Below, one piece after another: positions 21,944 through 29,220 of a stretch of DNA of 64,000 nt. The notes beneath the pieces were generated by a model. It was not told the DNA's origin, searched no databases, and saw only the letters and a list, made by a program, of their open reading frames with translations. Numbering within the stretch: position 1 is the first letter of the stretch; the number at the start of each line of letters is the position of its first letter. This DNA is from Prosthecobacter dejongeii (GTDB taxonomy: Bacteria > Verrucomicrobiota > Verrucomicrobiia > Verrucomicrobiales > Verrucomicrobiaceae). The stretch covers positions 248,001 to 312,000 of the forward strand of contig NZ_JACHIF010000005.1 in NCBI RefSeq assembly GCF_014203045.1. Reading direction: 5' to 3'. The position numbers and the translations under genes were made by a program.

Positions 21944-21967
21944 GTGTCTATAGGTGAGGGGCAGGTC

Positions 21968-22033
21968 TTTAAATTCCCACTTGATTGAAAGGAATTAAAG
22001 CGTATTTAAATCCACACTCATTAAGTGTGAATT
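21968..22033 (+). promoter_or_regulatory. Promoter and operator of cassette gene A
   Basis: TTTAAATTCCCACTTGA (21968-21984) leads into a sigma70-like promoter with -35 TTGATT (21981), a 16-bp spacer and -10 TATTTA (22003). It is followed by CACACT-CATTA-AGTGTG, a perfect inverted repeat at 22013-22029 whose flanks (AAT/ATT) extend the symmetry. The first 52 bp align without gaps to the region upstream of cassette gene B (26564-26615), sharing about 40 positions. The match marks a common control site for the cassette. Confidence 0.65.
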
Positions 22034-22119
22034 AATGTGTGCGCTACTCTTCCTACGGAAAGCAGCTCTTTCCTCGTCCATTCCCCCCAACTGGACCTTT
22101 TTGAAATGCACCTCCTGCC

Positions 22120-25100
22120 ATGAAAGTTTTTTCCCATCCCTCTTCTCGTCGCCGCGGTATCGCGTTGGTGACGGTGATCTCATTGGTCGCTTTGATGACG
22201 ATGCTGATCGTGGCCATGTTATCCATCTCACAGACCGAATTGAAGTCTGCCCATGTCAGTGCCGATGGGCAGCAGGCCCGCCAGCTTTCCGAAGTGGCGG
22301 TGAATATGGTGATCTCACAACTGCGCAAAGCCACCACGCAGAACACGGGCGCAGCCGGTTGGGAGGCCTGGACCTCACAGCCAGGCGTGGTGCGCCGCTA
22401 CGCCACCAATGGACAGGCACAGTCCGCTTATAAGCTCTACTCCAGCCCCGTGCTGGTGCTGCGTGACCCGGGGAATATCGAAGCTCAATTGTTGGCTGAC
22501 GTCGTTCCAGCAGACTGGCAGGAGCGCCCTCATCGTTTTGTGGACTTGAATCGCCCAGCCGTGCGTTCCAACCCACAGGGGCAGCCGCTGCTACTGTTTC
22601 CCATCCTCGACCCGCGCGCGCAGGGGGACGGCACTCCGAGTGTCGGTGGCTTTTCCTACCGTGAACAAAATGCGGCCGGGCAGCAAGTGGGCGGTGTGCG
22701 CACAGCCGGGGGGGATCGCCAACGGGTGCCTATGCCTGTGGAATGGCTCTATGTCCTGAAGGATGGCACTCTAGGCAGCTTGGATCAGTCTCAAGAATTT
22801 GTGGGGCCTTCACCTGCCACCCCGCAGAACCCCATTGTCGGGCGTGTGGCTTTCTGGACGGATGACGAAGCCTCGAAGGTGAATATCAACACGGCCTCAG
22901 AACCTACCCCGTGGGCCATGCCAACCTTTTTTTATGAAGAGGATGCGAAGTATGCTCGCTATCAACCGGTGGGCGGTGAATTCCAGAGATACCCAGGGCA
23001 CCCGGCCACGACGGCCTTGAGCCCGGTGCTGTTTCCGGGTCAACTTTTAAGCTCAGCGCAAAAAGAATCCATCTATGATCTCATTCCTAAAGTGGGGGCA
23101 GGGGGCAGCCGTGGCGGCACACGAGCCTACAGTGATCCAGACATCGCTGCCGTCGCTTTGTCCACCTTCCGGAAAGAACGCCTTTTTGCCAGTCTAGATG
23201 AGCTGCTCCTGAATGAAAACCGTCAGCCGAATACCCTGGGCAGCACCACGCTAAATGCCACAGACATTCAGCGGGCTGGGTTCTTCCTCACCGCACATAG
23301 TCGTGCACCTGAGGCCAATCCGCTCGGCCTGCCAAAGATCGCGGCCTGGCCAGTCAGTTACCGGGGGCCAGAATATCGTACTTCGTTTGATCAGCTCATA
23401 GCTCACTGCGGCACTCTGCGCACGGTCAACGGCACTCGCAGTTACGTCTTCCAGCGTGGGTGGGCAGACTCTCCCACCCAGGATGTGGATCACCCAGAAA
23501 ACAAGGTGTTGCTGGAATATCTGGAGGAAGTGCTATCCCGGCCTGTTCCCGGATTCACCACTTCAGCGGGGCAAACATTTAACCAAAAGTACGACAAGGA
23601 TTTGAATCAGATCCTGGTGGAAATTTTCGATTATGTTCGCAGTGTGAATCTGCATGACGGCAGTCTCATTCGTGGAACGGATAAGTTCGACGGTACAGGC
23701 AAGGCGCAAAATGCCATGCTAGGATACATCGCTGGGAGTGCCCGCCCCACCACCTTCAAGACCTTTACAGACCCGCGCTTTTTCGGGGCTGCCACGGATC
23801 CTGATGATCCTGATGCAGAAAGTGGCCAGGTAGAAAAGTTAGGCTTTCCAGGACATGGGCAGGTGACACCCGCCCGCTGGACGACCAAGAGTGGAGACGT
23901 GGTGCAGGGCTTTGGCCGCTTCCCCACCATCACAGAAGTGGGGCTGCATTTCATTTGCGCCGCAGACAACACCGATGATCCGAACAACCCTTTGATCGAA
24001 AAAGATCCTTCGATTGGCAAGCCGGGTGGCGGCAGCGCTAAGAAAGGCCAGCTAGGCACGAATCTGCCCAATGGCGCGGAAGATCGTTGGTACTCCAATT
24101 TTCCGCCTCGCCCGTATCCGGATCCCACGCTGAATCAGCCCAAGGATGATGTGAAGTATCCCTTCACAGGAGGCTTTCCTTATGGACCTGACAAGACACA
24201 TCCAGGATATAAAAGAGACAATTGGAATCACCAGCTTCAGTCGAACACGCCTCTGAAACCAGGCTTCCGGCGTATCCAGGCGCGTTTGCTTCTAGAGTTC
24301 TTTATCCCCACGGCGGGTTATACTCTCATTGAGCCCGACCTCACGGTGAAGGTGAAAGGCCTGAGCAAATTCCGCGTCAATGGCAAGCCACTCTTCCTCA
24401 ATGACGAGGAGCTTTTTTACACGGGCCGCAGGGCCACACACCCTGGAGCCCAAATGCAGGGTGGTTATGGCACGGGACTCAAAGGCCTGCTGCGCGGGCG
24501 TGAGGTGCCTGCTCGCTCCCCCATGCCCGCAGACGTGAGCTATGGAAATGATAACTGGGAAGTGAAGCCGACATCCTCCGTGAAGGATACCCAGTGCGTC
24601 TTGAATTATGACCTTATCAGCAACTTTGTGGACATTGAAGTCGGTCGCCAAGGGGAGTTGAACATGCTGCTCAGCAACACAGATCAGGTGCAAGCGGTGC
24701 CTTTGACCGTGGAGGTCTATTCGGGGCATCTGGGGCGCACCACTTCCACTCTAGAGACTCCTGCGGAACTGGTACAGACCCTGCAGCCAGAATTTCCTGC
24801 GGTGTCTCTGCGCCCTCCTACACTCGTGCGCACAGCGGCTCGTCCGGTGGGTCCTGACCAGGGGCGTGAGCCACCGGCTTGGTGGACGTTTTACACCCGA
24901 GGTGCGCTGGGTTTTAACGGTCGCGAGACATTGATCGGCCTGGATAAAAAAGCGCCTCAGGGTGGGGCGACTTTGCGTGGCCGCCTCTTCCGTCATCACA
25001 TCGCCCCGCATGTGAATAATAAGCACACCATGGGTGCTTTCTTTTTTGGCTTTGATTCCGCGCAGCCCGGTGCTCCGCGCATCTTCCGCACTCAGGATAA

Positions 25101-26463
25101 TGCCACCAACCAAAACCTCATTGATCAGGCGGAAGAGAAGGAAGGCAGCGACGTGGTGCAGACGGTCACCATTCGTCATGGGGACTATCGCCTGACTGCG
25201 GCGAAGCAAGTGGTGCCAGCAGCGGATTGGGCCTCACATCGTCATTATGGCAAACGCAGGTTGGCACATAGTTTAACCAACTTTGTATCCAATCATTTGC
25301 CTGGTTATGACTACGGCGGCAATACCGACTATGCCGACCGCTTGGTGCCCAATGTCGCTGGTGCAGGTTACCCCAACCATCGTCTGCCTGACTTCCCCTA
25401 CCTGGCAGATGCACGCGAGGCCGCACATCGTTATGGCGATTTTGACAACGGCTCCGGCACCCATCGGGATGGTCCATACATCAATAAGCCGGATGAGGGG
25501 AATCTGAACATCGTGGCAGGCAATGGGGGCGTCGCTTACTTCAGTGAGAGTGCTCAGCACCGCACGACGGAGCAGGATTTTTATTCGCCCAATCGCATGA
25601 TTCCCTCGCCCGTCATGTTCGGTTCGCTGCCCTCAGGCGTGCATGCGGGAGACCCTTGGAAAACGTTGCTATTCCGTCCTCAGCAAGGTCATCCAGGTGG
25701 GCCGACCAAGCTGGGGGGCAATAGCCCGGCTGACCATTTGTTGCTGGAATACTTCTGGATGCCCGTGGTGGAGCCGTATGCCATCAGCGAGCCGTTCTCC
25801 ACGGCGGGTAAGGTGAATCTGAATTATCAAATTTTTCCCTTCACCCACATCCGCCGCGCCACGGCACTGCATGCAGCCTTAGCGGGGGAAGTGATCCATG
25901 CAGTGCCGACGGAGGATGCGCCTAACTACAAAGTATTTCCAGATGCCAACAACCAGAACGCATTTTGGGGCAGCACACAGGGGAAGCAGTGGCACTACAA
26001 GGTGGATGTGGAAAAGACCCTCGCTCAGTTTGAGCAGCGTTTCGCCCAGGGGCGCACTTTCATCAGTCCTAGCGAGATTTGCGACATCCACTTGGTACCC
26101 AAAGATGTGCCGGGGATTGAGGATCACACCAAGATGGATGACTTCTGGCGTGCTCACCGCCTCACGGGAGATAACACCCGCGAGCGTCCCTACGCTGGCC
26201 TTTATCCACGGGTGACCACGCGGTCAAATACCTTCCGCGTTCACTACATCGCACAGACGATCAAAAAAGCCCGTTCCTCAGGCCCTCAGACAATGGAAGA
26301 GGCCGATAAGATCACAGGTGAGTACCGCGGCTCCACGCTCATTGAGCGGCATTTGGACCCTACCCAACCTGACCTGCCTGACTTCGCGATCAATCCTTCA
26401 GGTCAGACGCTGGATCACTACCATCAGTTCCGCATCTTACAGACTCAGCGTTTTGGCTTTTAG
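22120..26463 (+). CDS. Verru_Chthon cassette protein A (GspK-like N-terminus, giant ectodomain)
   Basis: A 1447-residue protein matching the first member of the Verru_Chthon cassette, a set of families known from Verrucomicrobia without a defined function. The N-terminus RRRGIALVTVISLVALMTMLIVAMLSI resembles class III/type IV prepilin leaders: processing would follow G13. It lacks Glu at +5 (Thr instead), as in the GspK tip pseudopilin of type II secretion. TELKSAHVSADGQQARQLSEVAVNM continues the helix. The ectodomain is about four times the size of GspK and includes the GspK-like stretch VGRVAFWTDDEASKVNINTASEPTPW near residue 240. I infer a surface or secretion-tip role. A terminator follows, so it is probably transcribed alone from its own promoter. 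Confidence 0.85.
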   Translation: MKVFSHPSSRRRGIALVTVISLVALMTMLIVAMLSISQTELKSAHVSADGQQARQLSEVAVNMVISQLRKATTQNTGAAGWEAWTSQPGVVRRYATNGQAQSAYKLYSSPVLVLRDPGNIEAQLLADVVPADWQERPHRFVDLNRPAVRSNPQGQPLLLFPILDPRAQGDGTPSVGGFSYREQNAAGQQVGGVRTAGGDRQRVPMPVEWLYVLKDGTLGSLDQSQEFVGPSPATPQNPIVGRVAFWTDDEASKVNINTASEPTPWAMPTFFYEEDAKYARYQPVGGEFQRYPGHPATTALSPVLFPGQLLSSAQKESIYDLIPKVGAGGSRGGTRAYSDPDIAAVALSTFRKERLFASLDELLLNENRQPNTLGSTTLNATDIQRAGFFLTAHSRAPEANPLGLPKIAAWPVSYRGPEYRTSFDQLIAHCGTLRTVNGTRSYVFQRGWADSPTQDVDHPENKVLLEYLEEVLSRPVPGFTTSAGQTFNQKYDKDLNQILVEIFDYVRSVNLHDGSLIRGTDKFDGTGKAQNAMLGYIAGSARPTTFKTFTDPRFFGAATDPDDPDAESGQVEKLGFPGHGQVTPARWTTKSGDVVQGFGRFPTITEVGLHFICAADNTDDPNNPLIEKDPSIGKPGGGSAKKGQLGTNLPNGAEDRWYSNFPPRPYPDPTLNQPKDDVKYPFTGGFPYGPDKTHPGYKRDNWNHQLQSNTPLKPGFRRIQARLLLEFFIPTAGYTLIEPDLTVKVKGLSKFRVNGKPLFLNDEELFYTGRRATHPGAQMQGGYGTGLKGLLRGREVPARSPMPADVSYGNDNWEVKPTSSVKDTQCVLNYDLISNFVDIEVGRQGELNMLLSNTDQVQAVPLTVEVYSGHLGRTTSTLETPAELVQTLQPEFPAVSLRPPTLVRTAARPVGPDQGREPPAWWTFYTRGALGFNGRETLIGLDKKAPQGGATLRGRLFRHHIAPHVNNKHTMGAFFFGFDSAQPGAPRIFRTQDNATNQNLIDQAEEKEGSDVVQTVTIRHGDYRLTAAKQVVPAADWASHRHYGKRRLAHSLTNFVSNHLPGYDYGGNTDYADRLVPNVAGAGYPNHRLPDFPYLADAREAAHRYGDFDNGSGTHRDGPYINKPDEGNLNIVAGNGGVAYFSESAQHRTTEQDFYSPNRMIPSPVMFGSLPSGVHAGDPWKTLLFRPQQGHPGGPTKLGGNSPADHLLLEYFWMPVVEPYAISEPFSTAGKVNLNYQIFPFTHIRRATALHAALAGEVIHAVPTEDAPNYKVFPDANNQNAFWGSTQGKQWHYKVDVEKTLAQFEQRFAQGRTFISPSEICDIHLVPKDVPGIEDHTKMDDFWRAHRLTGDNTRERPYAGLYPRVTTRSNTFRVHYIAQTIKKARSSGPQTMEEADKITGEYRGSTLIERHLDPTQPDLPDFAINPSGQTLDHYHQFRILQTQRFGF

Positions 26464-26496
26464 ATGGAGCCCTTTTTGAAGTGAGAACTGGACAGG

Positions 26497-26528
26497 CCCG
26501 GTGGGGAAATCTTCCCACCGGGTTTTTT
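26497..26528 (+). terminator. Rho-independent terminator between cassette genes A and B
   Basis: A perfect 9-bp stem CCCGGTGGG (26497-26505) / CCCACCGGG (26514-26522) is followed by TTTTTT. It separates A from B although they form one functional set. Confidence 0.92.
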
Positions 26529-26563
26529 GTATAAGACAGCAATCTGGACGTCCAAAAAATGAA

Positions 26564-26633
26564 TTTAAATTCCCACTTGAACAGGGTGAATTAAGGGTTA
26601 TCTAAATTCACACTCTTTCGATATGGTATATCG
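26564..26633 (+). promoter_or_regulatory. Promoter and operator of cassette gene B
   Basis: This is the near-duplicate of the gene A control region: TTTAAATTCCCACTTGA (26564-26580) is identical, GAATTAA has identical spacing, -35 is TTGAAC and -10 is TATCTA with a 16-bp spacer, then TTCACACTC. Downstream, A and B differ: here the inverted repeat is CGATAT-GGT-ATATCG (26619-26633). Confidence 0.65.
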
Positions 26634-26695
26634 TGGGTGGCGCTGATCCCACGCAGGAAGGCGTTGTTTATCCCCCCCTTTAAACTCCTCCTTTC

Positions 26696-27220
26696 ATGAA
26701 CATTCCTGCTCTCCCTCGTTCTCTTCGCCGTGGTTTCTCTTTAGTGGAGGTCACTTTGGCCAGTGGCATAACGGCGCTGGCTCTGACCACTTTGCTGGGA
26801 CTCATTCCTCAGGGGCTGACAAACATTAAAGAAGCGGGAAACTTAGCGGCTGAGACGAGGATCACTACCCACATCGTCGGCAGTATCAGCCAGGCTCCGT
26901 GGCAAGATGAAAATGGTCAAGATATCTTGGCCCCCGAGTTTAACACGCAACGTTATTTCTTTGATGATCAAGGGGTGGCCATTGAAGGCGAGGAACCCGG
27001 TGCAGATCTGGCCTATGTCGCCGTTGTCCATATTCCTGCTCGCGATGTGACCTTGCCCGCAGATGCTGCCGCTCCTGCGGACGATTCGGATGTGGATCCT
27101 TATTTACGCCGTATCACCGTGAAAGTGACGAGTGTGGCCAATAAAGATTTCGATTTTGAACACGCCTTGCCGATGGCCTATCGGACCCACACGACTTTGA
27201 TCGCTCGCGTTGGACAGTGA
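26696..27220 (+). CDS. Verru_Chthon cassette protein B (GspI-like pseudopilin)
   Basis: A 174-residue prepilin-like protein. The leader ends RRG13, followed by F14-S-L-V-E18 with the canonical Glu at +5 and a hydrophobic helix (VTLASGITALALTTLLGLIPQG). The ectodomain is short and slightly acidic. Size and the N-terminal pattern GFSLVEVTLAS match the GspI class of minor pseudopilins, and its position second in the cassette matches the family known as Verru_Chthon cassette protein B. A leader peptidase (PilD) would be needed for maturation; none lies in the window. It is preceded by its own promoter-like region and could be co-transcribed with genes C and D. Confidence 0.85.
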   Translation: MNIPALPRSLRRGFSLVEVTLASGITALALTTLLGLIPQGLTNIKEAGNLAAETRITTHIVGSISQAPWQDENGQDILAPEFNTQRYFFDDQGVAIEGEEPGADLAYVAVVHIPARDVTLPADAAAPADDSDVDPYLRRITVKVTSVANKDFDFEHALPMAYRTHTTLIARVGQ

Positions 27221-27256
27221 GGTAGGTAGGCCTAACGAATGATTGATTGAGTATAG

Positions 27257-27273
27257 GACGATCAAAGATCGTC
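27257..27273. promoter_or_regulatory. Palindrome upstream of cassette gene C
   Basis: A perfect 7-bp inverted repeat, GACGATC-AAA-GATCGTC, 79 bp before the gene C start. There is no T-run, so an operator or RNA hairpin is more likely than a terminator. Confidence 0.4.
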
Positions 27274-27351
27274 AGGTTCTAGAGGCTTTGAATGCAAGCT
27301 AGAGTCCCGTCCCTCCCCCCTATGCGACCTTAACTGAGGAGCTATCGCCCC

Positions 27352-28500
27352 ATGAATATTTCCGCCTACTTCCTACCTAGCCGCAGGCCGTTTCGGCCAG
27401 CCTTTACCTTGGTCGAGTTGCTCGTTTCCACGGCGGTCCTGTCTATATTGTTGCTTGTGACGTTGTCGGCTTTGGAAACCATGCAGCGTTCCTGGCGGGA
27501 GACGAAGGGGAAGGTGAATCAGTTCCGTGGCGCGCGTATCGCTTTTGAGACGCTCACACGGAATTTGTCCCAAGCGACGCTCAATACCTATTGGGATTAT
27601 CATTTCACGGCGACTGAGTCGAACGTGCCACCTGCGGATGTGGCCTCGCCACCAGCAGGGTATGTGCGTCAGTCAGAATTGGATTTTCGGGTGCTCCCAG
27701 GCGTGGAAGTGGGCACGGGTGAAGAGGCTTCAGAGCTCCCGGGTCATGCCTTGTTTTTTCAAGCTCCCTTAGGGCTTAGTCAGGGGTATCGTGGGCTGGG
27801 AAATCTCCTGAATGCACGAGGTTATTACGTGCGCTTTCAGAGCAATGAGGATCAGCGCCCAGCTTTCCTCCCGGGTGGGGTGGTGCCAGTGAAGTTTCGT
27901 TATCAATTGATGGAGTACCGCCCACCCGCTGAACAGGTGGCCATCCCCGCCACGACTGCCAATACTGGCGGCGGGGCCAATCAAACGGTACAGGGGAACA
28001 CGGTTTACACCCGACCTGACTGGTTTAAGCAGGATTTGGAAACAGCCTCCAGACCCATTGCAGATAATATCCTGCTGCTTTTGATCAGCCCTCAGGTGCC
28101 GATTCAGGCTGCCGAAGCCGCAGCCAAAGCCCCCTACTGGTTAGCTCCGCTTTTCCGTTACTCATCCAGAGATGCTAACAATACGACCCCGGCACTGGAT
28201 AAACCCACTCTGCGGCGTGACGGTACCTTGGATCAAGGCACTCGCCATCTGCTGCCGCCTCTAGTGCGGGTCACTCTGGTGGCAGGAGAAGAGGGCTCGC
28301 TCAACCAATGGCATGCAGCAAATGGGAACGCTGCCGTGGATATTTGTGCAGCTGCGGATGCTCCCTTTGCGGAGGCTCGTCATTATGATCGGGATCTCAC
28401 CCGTTTGAAGGAATACCTCACGCGAGAGAGGCTGAATTTTCGAGTCTTTACCGCTACGGTTCCCATGCGAAATGCAGCCTGGGACAGCACCACTTATTAA
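27352..28500 (+). CDS. Verru_Chthon cassette protein C (GspJ-like pseudopilin)
   Basis: A 382-residue prepilin-like protein. The hydrophobic segment begins PAFTLVELLVSTAVLSILLL, with Phe18 as the expected mature +1 and Glu22 at +5. The residue before the cleavage site is Ala17 instead of the usual Gly, an unusual but tolerated variant. Helix continuation SALETMQRSWRETKGKVNQFRGARIAFETLTRNLSQATLNTYW is typical of the GspJ class. The ectodomain (~320 residues) is larger than GspJ. It is third in the cassette and should assemble with A, B and D. The ATG at 27352 is 131 bp after gene B. Confidence 0.85.
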   Translation: MNISAYFLPSRRPFRPAFTLVELLVSTAVLSILLLVTLSALETMQRSWRETKGKVNQFRGARIAFETLTRNLSQATLNTYWDYHFTATESNVPPADVASPPAGYVRQSELDFRVLPGVEVGTGEEASELPGHALFFQAPLGLSQGYRGLGNLLNARGYYVRFQSNEDQRPAFLPGGVVPVKFRYQLMEYRPPAEQVAIPATTANTGGGANQTVQGNTVYTRPDWFKQDLETASRPIADNILLLLISPQVPIQAAEAAAKAPYWLAPLFRYSSRDANNTTPALDKPTLRRDGTLDQGTRHLLPPLVRVTLVAGEEGSLNQWHAANGNAAVDICAAADAPFAEARHYDRDLTRLKEYLTRERLNFRVFTATVPMRNAAWDSTTY

Positions 28501-28531
28501 AGGAATTGCACTTATTGTTAGACTTTTGTGA

Positions 28532-28567
28532 CCTCAGTTCGGCTGAGGCAGAAATGATTTCATCATT
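28532..28567. promoter_or_regulatory. Two adjacent hairpins before cassette gene D
   Basis: CCTCAG-TTCGG-CTGAGG (28532-28548) is followed by AATGAT-TTC-ATCATT (28553-28567), ending 9 bp before the gene D start codon. The second occupies the normal ribosome binding site position, so it may limit translation of D. Confidence 0.4.
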
Positions 28568-28576
28568 CAATTTGTT

Positions 28577-29209
28577 ATGAAGACTCTCCCTTCTCCGAGG
28601 CCAGTTCGTGCTGGTTTCACCCTGATCGAAAGCCTCAGTGTGGTGCTTATCTTAGGCCTTGTGGTCGCTCTGGCGGCACCGACTATGCTGGGGGCCATCC
28701 GCGCCTCGCGGTTAACTTCTGCAGGCGAGTTGATCAGTGGTAAGATTGTGGAAGCCCAAGGTCTGGCCCTCACCTTTTCTTCAGACGTGGAACTGCGCTT
28801 TTATAAGGCGCCACCCACACTACCGGTGGATGGCAGCAGCGGTCAGTTTTTACAATTGCTGCAATGGGTAGAAAACGATCCTGAACTGACAGATGAAGAA
28901 GACATCGCCACTTTAAAAAAAATAGGAGCTCAGGTCGCAGTGCCCGAAGGCGTCACCCTGGCTACGGACGCAGGCTGGACGAGTCTCTGGAATCTGGAAG
29001 CGCAAACGGAAACCATTGCCGAAGGAGAGCAGGAATATGTGGCCATTCGCTTTCGTCCTGATGGCTCGACGGATCTGCCTGAAGCTGGGGCCTGGCATGT
29101 CACTTTGATTGATCAGCAAGATGCCTTAAAGGGAGAATTACCGGCGAATTTTTACACCTTACAGATTGATCCTGTGACGGCCAAGTTGGAGATCTATCGG
29201 CCCGAATAA
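28577..29209 (+). CDS. Verru_Chthon cassette protein D (GspH-like pseudopilin)
   Basis: A 210-residue prepilin-like protein with leader ending RAG13 and mature F14-T-L-I-E18, then SLSVVLILGLVVALAAPTMLGAIRASRLTSAGELISGKIVEAQGLAL, the GspH-like pattern in which the helix runs into a Glu/Gln-rich segment. It is last in the cassette, matching Verru_Chthon cassette protein D. No ribosome binding site is obvious (CAATTTGTTATG). The gene ends 11 bp from the convergent ABC permease gene. With A (K-like), B (I-like) and C (J-like), the cassette corresponds piece by piece to a minor-pseudopilin tip complex. Confidence 0.85.
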   Translation: MKTLPSPRPVRAGFTLIESLSVVLILGLVVALAAPTMLGAIRASRLTSAGELISGKIVEAQGLALTFSSDVELRFYKAPPTLPVDGSSGQFLQLLQWVENDPELTDEEDIATLKKIGAQVAVPEGVTLATDAGWTSLWNLEAQTETIAEGEQEYVAIRFRPDGSTDLPEAGAWHVTLIDQQDALKGELPANFYTLQIDPVTAKLEIYRPE

Positions 29210-29220
29210 AGCGGATGATC

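Follow-up and report, generated by a model that had tools for sequence, protein, structure and literature searches.

The Verru_Chthon cassette of Prosthecobacter dejongeii as a candidate set of type II minor pseudopilins with a giant GspK-like member

A stretch of 64,000 nucleotides of the Prosthecobacter dejongeii genome (contig NZ_JACHIF010000005.1, positions 248,001 to 312,000; here called the window) carries four consecutive genes, A, B, C and D, that belong to the Verru_Chthon cassette families. With moderate confidence we interpret cassettes of this type as spare, exchangeable tips of K-, I-, J- and H-type minor pseudopilins which load giant cargo proteins onto a shared type II secretion machine. 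The relations of A to GspK, of C to GspJ and of D to GspH were supported by computation, and homology is well supported for these three pairs. No motor genes lie near the cassette of the window, and many of its relatives are linked to genes of large secreted proteins. B as the I subunit, assembly in trans, binding of giant cargo and a 2590-residue protein as the cargo of the window's set are proposed elements of the model. The model descriptions of the Verru_Chthon families carry a name without a function, and the tip reading, the missing motor and the link to giant proteins were added by this analysis.

According to PMC6211770, four minor pseudopilins form the tip in the Xcp system, with XcpX (GspK) on top and said to be critical for substrate recognition. 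The large insertion of GspK is described in PMC7248040 as absent from PilX of P. aeruginosa, its equivalent in type IV pili.

Four genes with prepilin-type leaders

All four genes are intact and located on the plus strand. Coordinates are positions in the window.

22120..26463, plus strand: gene A, giant GspK-like minor pseudopilin of 1447 residues, TIGR02600; profile matches and fold of a relative
22120..22158, plus strand: prepilin leader of A, residues 1-13, Gly at -1
26696..27220, plus strand: gene B, GspI-like minor pseudopilin of 174 residues, TIGR02598; profile match in the leader region and gene order
27352..28500, plus strand: gene C, GspJ-like minor pseudopilin of 382 residues, TIGR02599; profile matches and predicted fold
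28577..29209, plus strand: gene D, GspH-like minor pseudopilin of 210 residues, TIGR02596; profile matches

The curated NCBIfam cut-offs of the Verru_Chthon families were passed by all four products. A reached 1013.5 bits against TIGR02600 (Verru_Chthon A; cut-off 332.3), B 98.2 bits against TIGR02598 (51.4), C 328.4 bits against TIGR02599 (256.5) and D 111.6 bits against TIGR02596 (70). A preliminary description of this DNA had assigned prepilin-type N-termini to all four genes, and the leaders and lengths agreed with it. The leaders are RRRG13-IALVT in A (Thr at +5, no Glu), GFSLVEV in B, AFTLVELLVS in C and GFTLIES...APTML in D. A gave no Pfam match. The N-terminal methylation motif was matched by B (below cut-off), C and D, and C also matched ComGE weakly (E-value 0.17).

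In the following, L-numbers denote genomic loci (of those related to the window's cassette, the best 80 of 314 were listed), and G000 denotes the genome of the window. Intact relatives of the cassette occur within the same genus. In comparison with L094, the proportion of synonymous differences in the four genes was 0.76-0.82 (saturated) and that of nonsynonymous differences 0.18-0.27, values that fit purifying selection.

Gene A as a probable enlarged GspK

With 1447 residues A is far longer than the approximately 330 residues that the preliminary description had quoted for GspK, a figure that agrees with the ordinary K genes of the same genome (329, 317 and 309 codons). Mature proteins of the A family comprise 1193-1825 residues as compared to 295-376 for K, and lie outside the usual GspK size of about 300-380 residues. 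Glu at +5 is missing from all 83 A relatives, as it is from all 31 GspK sequences; counts of this residue for B, C and D are not independent, because the leader pattern used there demanded it. The GspK model NF037980 matched A residues 12-77 (E-value 5.1e-9, 36.1 bits), below its curated cut-off of 130 bits.

For GspG, H, I, J and K, profiles were compiled from type II loci of phylum members, among them those of the window's genome; a K profile, the leader and the gene order decided which role each protein received. Six A open reading frames (ORFs) without the leader pattern were dropped, two of which were restored by hand, and five B, C or D ORFs lacking the stricter pattern were also dropped. 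In comparisons of hidden Markov models (HMMs) that included the leader, the best partner of A was K (P 5.8e-7). After removal of 36 mature residues the match to K was weak (best P 0.0032), and G, H, I and J gave no better than P 0.088. Three weak internal matches to K (P 0.003, 0.11 and 0.03) are colinear, and none of this kind was found against G, H, I or J. The corresponding segments of A are as follows.

22840..22911, plus strand: residues 241-264, GRVAFWTDDEASKVNINTASEPTP, first N-x-N motif, aligned to GspK 108-131 (P 0.003); contains invariant residues
22912..25800, plus strand: residues 265-1227, apparent site of the bulk of the added length; stretch flanked by weak colinear matches, with a beta-sandwich-like part in the model
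25801..25863, plus strand: residues 1228-1248, TAGKVNLN..., second N-x-N motif, aligned to GspK 249-275 (P 0.11, colinear)
26197..26286, plus strand: residues 1360-1389, RVTTRSNTFRVHYIAQ..., C-terminal strand, aligned to GspK 315-344 (P 0.03, colinear)

The first two motifs enclose about 960 residues in A versus about 120 in K; the greater part of what A has gained appears to sit within the GspK frame.

The fold was predicted for the A protein of L195, which is 41% identical to that of the window, from mature residue 25 to the end and with an alignment of 57 sequences (7 of the 64 listed A rows were left out). The model of 1171 residues had a predicted local distance difference test (pLDDT) score of 83.0 and a predicted TM-score of 0.87. 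In VIA-align, GspK of enterotoxigenic Escherichia coli (3ci0_K) was the top structure with Z 10.1, aligning 261 of 280 residues at a root-mean-square deviation of 3.8 over model residues 5-1171; the following row had Z 4.1. Weak C2- or sandwich-like rows, with Z up to 4.1 for the whole model, matched the middle of the protein. A phmmer search of A against PDB sequences gave no match. Verru_Chthon A looks like a further enlargement of the exposed part of GspK that PilX lacks.

Genes B, C and D as putative GspI, GspJ and GspH

The relation of D to GspH is the clearest at the profile level. Including the leader, D matched H with P 8.5e-19, and the match stayed significant without it (P 4.7e-7 over 119 columns, probability 92.6, 36 residues removed). 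The GspH model TIGR01708 gave 20.2 bits over residues 12-163, below the curated cut-off of 80.

For C the best partner with the leader was J (P 8.6e-11), and the GspJ model TIGR01711 gave 20.1 bits (curated cut-off 64.85). The predicted structure of the window's own C, for which 6 of 60 C rows were left out of the alignment, had a pLDDT of 87.5. Its ten best structures, with Z 9.8-11.2, were J-type pseudopilins (EpsJ, XcpW, GspJ and an Xcp filament model) together with the pilin-like TTHA1219, which accounts for two of the ten entries; the next row had Z 2.3. Foldseek E-values for this model were weak, with EpsJ first at 0.11. Mature C proteins are longer than J (304-400 versus 217-314 residues).

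B matched I with P 5.6e-11 when the leader was included, tied with J at 8e-11. Its assignment as a putative GspI draws on leader and gene order. The K-I-J-H reading of the preliminary description was thus carried beyond the leader for A and C by predicted folds and for D by its profile, while for B it went no further than leader and order. In the HMM comparison that it had proposed, the expected partners ranked best with the leader (B in a tie), whereas without it only D to H was clearly significant. Of the outcomes named there as speaking against the idea, a lack of profile similarity past the leader was not found for D, and folds foreign to pseudopilins were not found for C and the A relative.

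Absence of adjacent motor genes

Queries for GspE, F, L, M and D and for PilT-like proteins gave only two incidental matches among 1246 ORFs of 97 cassette loci, with flanks of at most 10 kb and some short contigs. One, in L177, is a GspE-like gene on the opposite strand, and the other, in L135, resembles a secretin gene. The same queries matched all 11 control type II loci. Because no assembly ATPase, platform or secretin gene was found beside the cassettes apart from these two, the cassette probably borrows its machine, and it looks like an extra tip set for that machine.

Assembly ATPase, platform and secretin genes exist elsewhere in the window's genome. Its three ordinary pseudopilin sets, L071, L076 and L234, share with the cassette the four roles and the prepilin class (leader and order served to assign G, H, I and J). 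Unlike the cassette they adjoin platform-type genes, E- and F-like at L071 and L076 and F-like at L234, and their K is of normal size. All eight genomes of the phylum with TIGR02600 matches over cut-off also carry a GspK match elsewhere, in a frame of 310-360 codons in seven and of 597 codons in G078.

Large secreted proteins encoded upstream

Of 89 sets with a long A, 12 had less than 3000 bases upstream and were left out of the neighbor count, which covered 77 sets including that of the window. In 48 of these a same-strand ORF of at least 600 residues ends within 1500 bases of the first cassette gene. The tails of these ORFs were PEP-CTERM-like in 26 cases, of a G-Y-F-L-L-P...L-S-G-Q-V type (YFLLP-type) in 11 and neither in 11. 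Hence, 37 of 77 sets have a large secreted protein with one of the two tails just upstream. Frame lengths ranged from 828 codons up to the 10 kb limit of the flank. In a control with a second PEP tail pattern, PEP-like tails occurred upstream in 27 of 77 sets (26 with the first pattern), as compared to 3 of 70 on the downstream side and 13 of 700 among the remaining ORFs.

The PEP_CTERM profile confirmed three of four scanned upstream proteins (L091, L085 and L087, not L086), and beta-strand repeats were found in those of L091, L085 and L086. Two YFLLP-type proteins, at L009 and L129, bear Ig-like domains. The former is encoded in the window's own genome by a frame of 6051 codons (C5:365008-383160) that immediately precedes the L009 cassette and contains beta-strand, delta-60 and Ig-like repeats. 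Large proteins with a common C-terminal region and a tail like G-Y-F-L-L-P...L-S-G-Q-V were found at 30 places in this genome. The tail is a possible sorting or export signal.

Partner types clustered on a tree of 82 A proteins; the tree was of a quick kind, had long branches and raised warnings, the partner label changes on it at least 14 times, and no shuffled comparison accompanied it. Taken together, the upstream enrichment and the grouping of partners on the tree suggest more than chance.

On this tree the neighbors of the window's A are L092 (80% identity), L094, L129, L130 and L131. L129 (75% identity, closest among the best 80 related loci) has a YFLLP-type protein 507 bases upstream, with 946 codons up to the contig end. 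The best match of this partner in G000 is a protein of 2590 residues (C1:113094-120866, L238), 57% identical over 944 residues, as compared to at most 42% for the other 29 matches. No cassette gene was found within the 20 kb examined around it. This protein is apparently an unlinked orthologue of the L129 giant and, on sequence grounds, would be the likeliest candidate cargo of the window's set.

Proposed model and its significance

In our model A, B, C and D would form a spare set of K, I, J and H minor pseudopilins capping the type II pseudopilus. Having no motor of its own, the set would be assembled in trans by one of the ordinary type II machines of the cell, whose major pseudopilin GspG would supply the shaft. 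A would be a K tip subunit that gained about 1000 residues, the bulk of them enclosed by a pair of K-frame motifs. Its head may serve to bind or accommodate a single class of exported giants, and a swap of the tip would then change the cargo. We put forward only tentatively an extension in which several motorless tip sets coexist in one cell, each giant K head fitting one kind of giant protein of up to about 6000 residues, with a shared exporter.

The cassette is like the known GspK/XcpX-GspI-GspJ-GspH tip in its four proteins with prepilin leaders, a K without Glu at +5, the GspK fold of an A relative, the GspJ fold of C, the GspH profile match of D and, in some sets, the gene order H-I-J-K. 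It differs in the length of A (1447 residues versus 309-329 codons in the same genome), in a longer C and in that the window's cassette has no GspG, E, F, L, M or D gene.

Searches of open-licence papers in PubMed Central found none on the Verru_Chthon cassette, on verrucomicrobial pseudopilins, GspK or prepilin-type cassettes, on PEP-CTERM together with type II pseudopilins, on hpsB pseudopilins and hormogonium polysaccharide, or on substrate recognition by pseudopilins with XcpW and the secretin. Within this literature the families are known by name; no publication describing the tip reading, the borrowed machine or the giant partners came up. The duplicated tips found in nature, with their links to particular giants, would allow direct tests of which part of the type II machine chooses the substrate and of how PEP-CTERM giants pass the outer membrane, and the linkage indicates a testable set of partners. 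Four families carrying only a cassette name would gain a function class, and it appears that the tip subunit of the type II piston is able to reach four times its usual size. Exchangeable tips, if they exist, would provide a concrete outer-membrane route for giant PEP-CTERM and similar proteins.

Counter-evidence and alternative explanations

A number of observations weigh against this model. The curated cut-offs of the GspK, GspJ and GspH models were missed by A, C and D alike. The strong HMM match of A to GspK is confined to residues 6-90, and the pairing of the motifs is not firm because the alignment of A 239-268 to K 238-267, which joins the first motif of A to the second one of GspK, is nearly as good (P 0.0055). 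The GspK fold was predicted for L195 from mature residue 25, not for the window's own A, and for this model Foldseek ranked 3ci0_K 40th (E-value 0.58), behind entries that were mostly C2 domains. A predicted fold whose match is clear to a full aligner and nearly invisible to Foldseek is as one would expect of a small core split by a large insert. After removal of 36 mature residues B gave P 0.27 against I and had its best match with H (P 0.008). For C without the leader the best partner was still J, at P 0.034. Past the leader, neither B nor C has a significant sequence match.

Regarding the linkage, some of the linked loci are related by synteny and cannot be counted as independent cases; the gene downstream in many syntenic loci is presumably an IMP dehydrogenase. 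The window's set has no upstream ORF of at least 600 residues. Within its subclade of six the same is true for L094, L130 and L131, the upstream ORF of L092 (1290 codons) has neither tail, and only the partner of L129 could be typed. The window's genome contains 28 PEP-CTERM matches and 30 matches to the second tail as compared to three TIGR02600 cassettes, and because of these numbers one tip per cargo cannot be general.

Among the alternatives, the set may prime or cap a surface type IV pilus, with the head of A as tip adhesin and the linked giants as co-regulated surface proteins instead of cargo. We regard this as unlikely, though it has several points in its favor. PMC7248040 describes the core minor pilins of type IVa pili as homologous to GspH-K, 13 matches to the T2SSE family in the genome exceed the cut-off, of which six fall in shorter frames of PilT size (357-386 codons), and the linked proteins resemble surface or matrix proteins in their Ig, PATR and PEP-CTERM domains. 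Yet PilX reportedly lacks the large GspK insertion (PMC7248040), almost the whole of GspK is covered in the alignment with the A relative, and pilus motor genes were not found beside the cassettes of the 97 loci save for the two incidental matches. CofB and TcpB of type IVb pili are tip subunits that start pilus assembly (PMC7248040), but they act as a single subunit versus four here; the likeness is drawn from their description.

Less probable still, in our view, is a general or polysaccharide-related pseudopilin group on a borrowed pilus machine, with the giant linkage reflecting operonic inheritance and no physical role. The Hps pseudopilins of cyanobacteria are of this kind, being groups of minor pseudopilins that reportedly work with a separate pilus motor and are linked to polysaccharide secretion; we know of no giant K among them. 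The J-like protein of a fourth, distant set of the window's genome matched HpsC over residues 10-74 (E-value 2.9e-8, 33.6 bits, cut-off 200), and D matched HpsB very weakly (E-value 0.74). Exosortase is present twice in the genome, and PMC1569441 reports that PEP-CTERM systems accompany exopolysaccharide genes. Inheritance as a mere operon agrees poorly with the enrichment of PEP-like proteins upstream rather than downstream of the cassettes and with the grouping of partner types on the A tree.

The preliminary description had raised, as a testable reading, a dedicated exporter or surface appendage separate from a housekeeping type II system. Several cassettes per genome and distinct clades would suit a self-standing exporter with its own machine; we rejected it as very improbable in view of the motor genes missing from 97 loci (L177 and L135 excepted, flanks of at most 10 kb) and the three ordinary pseudopilin sets of the genome. 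Similarly improbable is a shared leader only, the rest of A being an unrelated exported domain on a prepilin helix: the confined HMM match and the weak Foldseek E-values are in line with it, but it was rejected for A on the end-to-end structural alignment of the relative to GspK, and the colinear internal matches were to K and not to G, H, I or J.

Gene order and distribution of the cassette

The window's cassette is flanked by a transaldolase gene upstream and by opposite-strand ABC-transporter genes downstream, as identified by reading their sequences. Among the 89 sets with a long A, 39 read A-B-C-D and all four genes were detected in 50. The order D-B-C-A, which equals the canonical H-I-J-K, occurred in four sets including L011 of the window's own genome. 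L009 and its relatives form a clade with A, C and D in which no B was detected; in L009 and L095 the gap between A and C is too short for B. Some other missing B calls (e.g. L137 and L144) may stem from the ORF overlap filter. In the clade without detected B (L009, L095, L199, L171, L202 and L205) A has about 1750 residues and the giants are without a PEP-CTERM-like tail.

TIGR02600 exceeded its cut-off in 8 of 387 genomes of the phylum and was matched at an E-value of 0.001 or better in 207, mostly N-terminally. Most of the TIGR02600 matches listed are located in frames of 700-1700 codons. Giant K heads may be a phylum-wide habit.

The window's genome (6.0 Mb) encodes three TIGR02600 proteins over cut-off and a fourth, distant one matched at the N-terminus only. 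TIGR02597, which we take to be a neighboring family number of the Verru_Chthon models, had matches in this genome, none over cut-off. PF03934 (T2SSK) matched only C13:93039 over cut-off, presumably a Tex-like protein judging from its sequence, and gave a weak match inside the fourth set. This set, at the start of contig 5 (L013:1612-7271), comprises a K-like gene of 1134 residues followed by H-, I- and J-like genes, and the Verru_Chthon models match the quartet weakly at the N-termini. Proteins of 1644 and 549 residues, which we take to be DUF1800- and DUF1501-like, are encoded upstream of the L011 cassette with the order D-B-C-A, on the far side of an opposite-strand gene (L011:157-6767).

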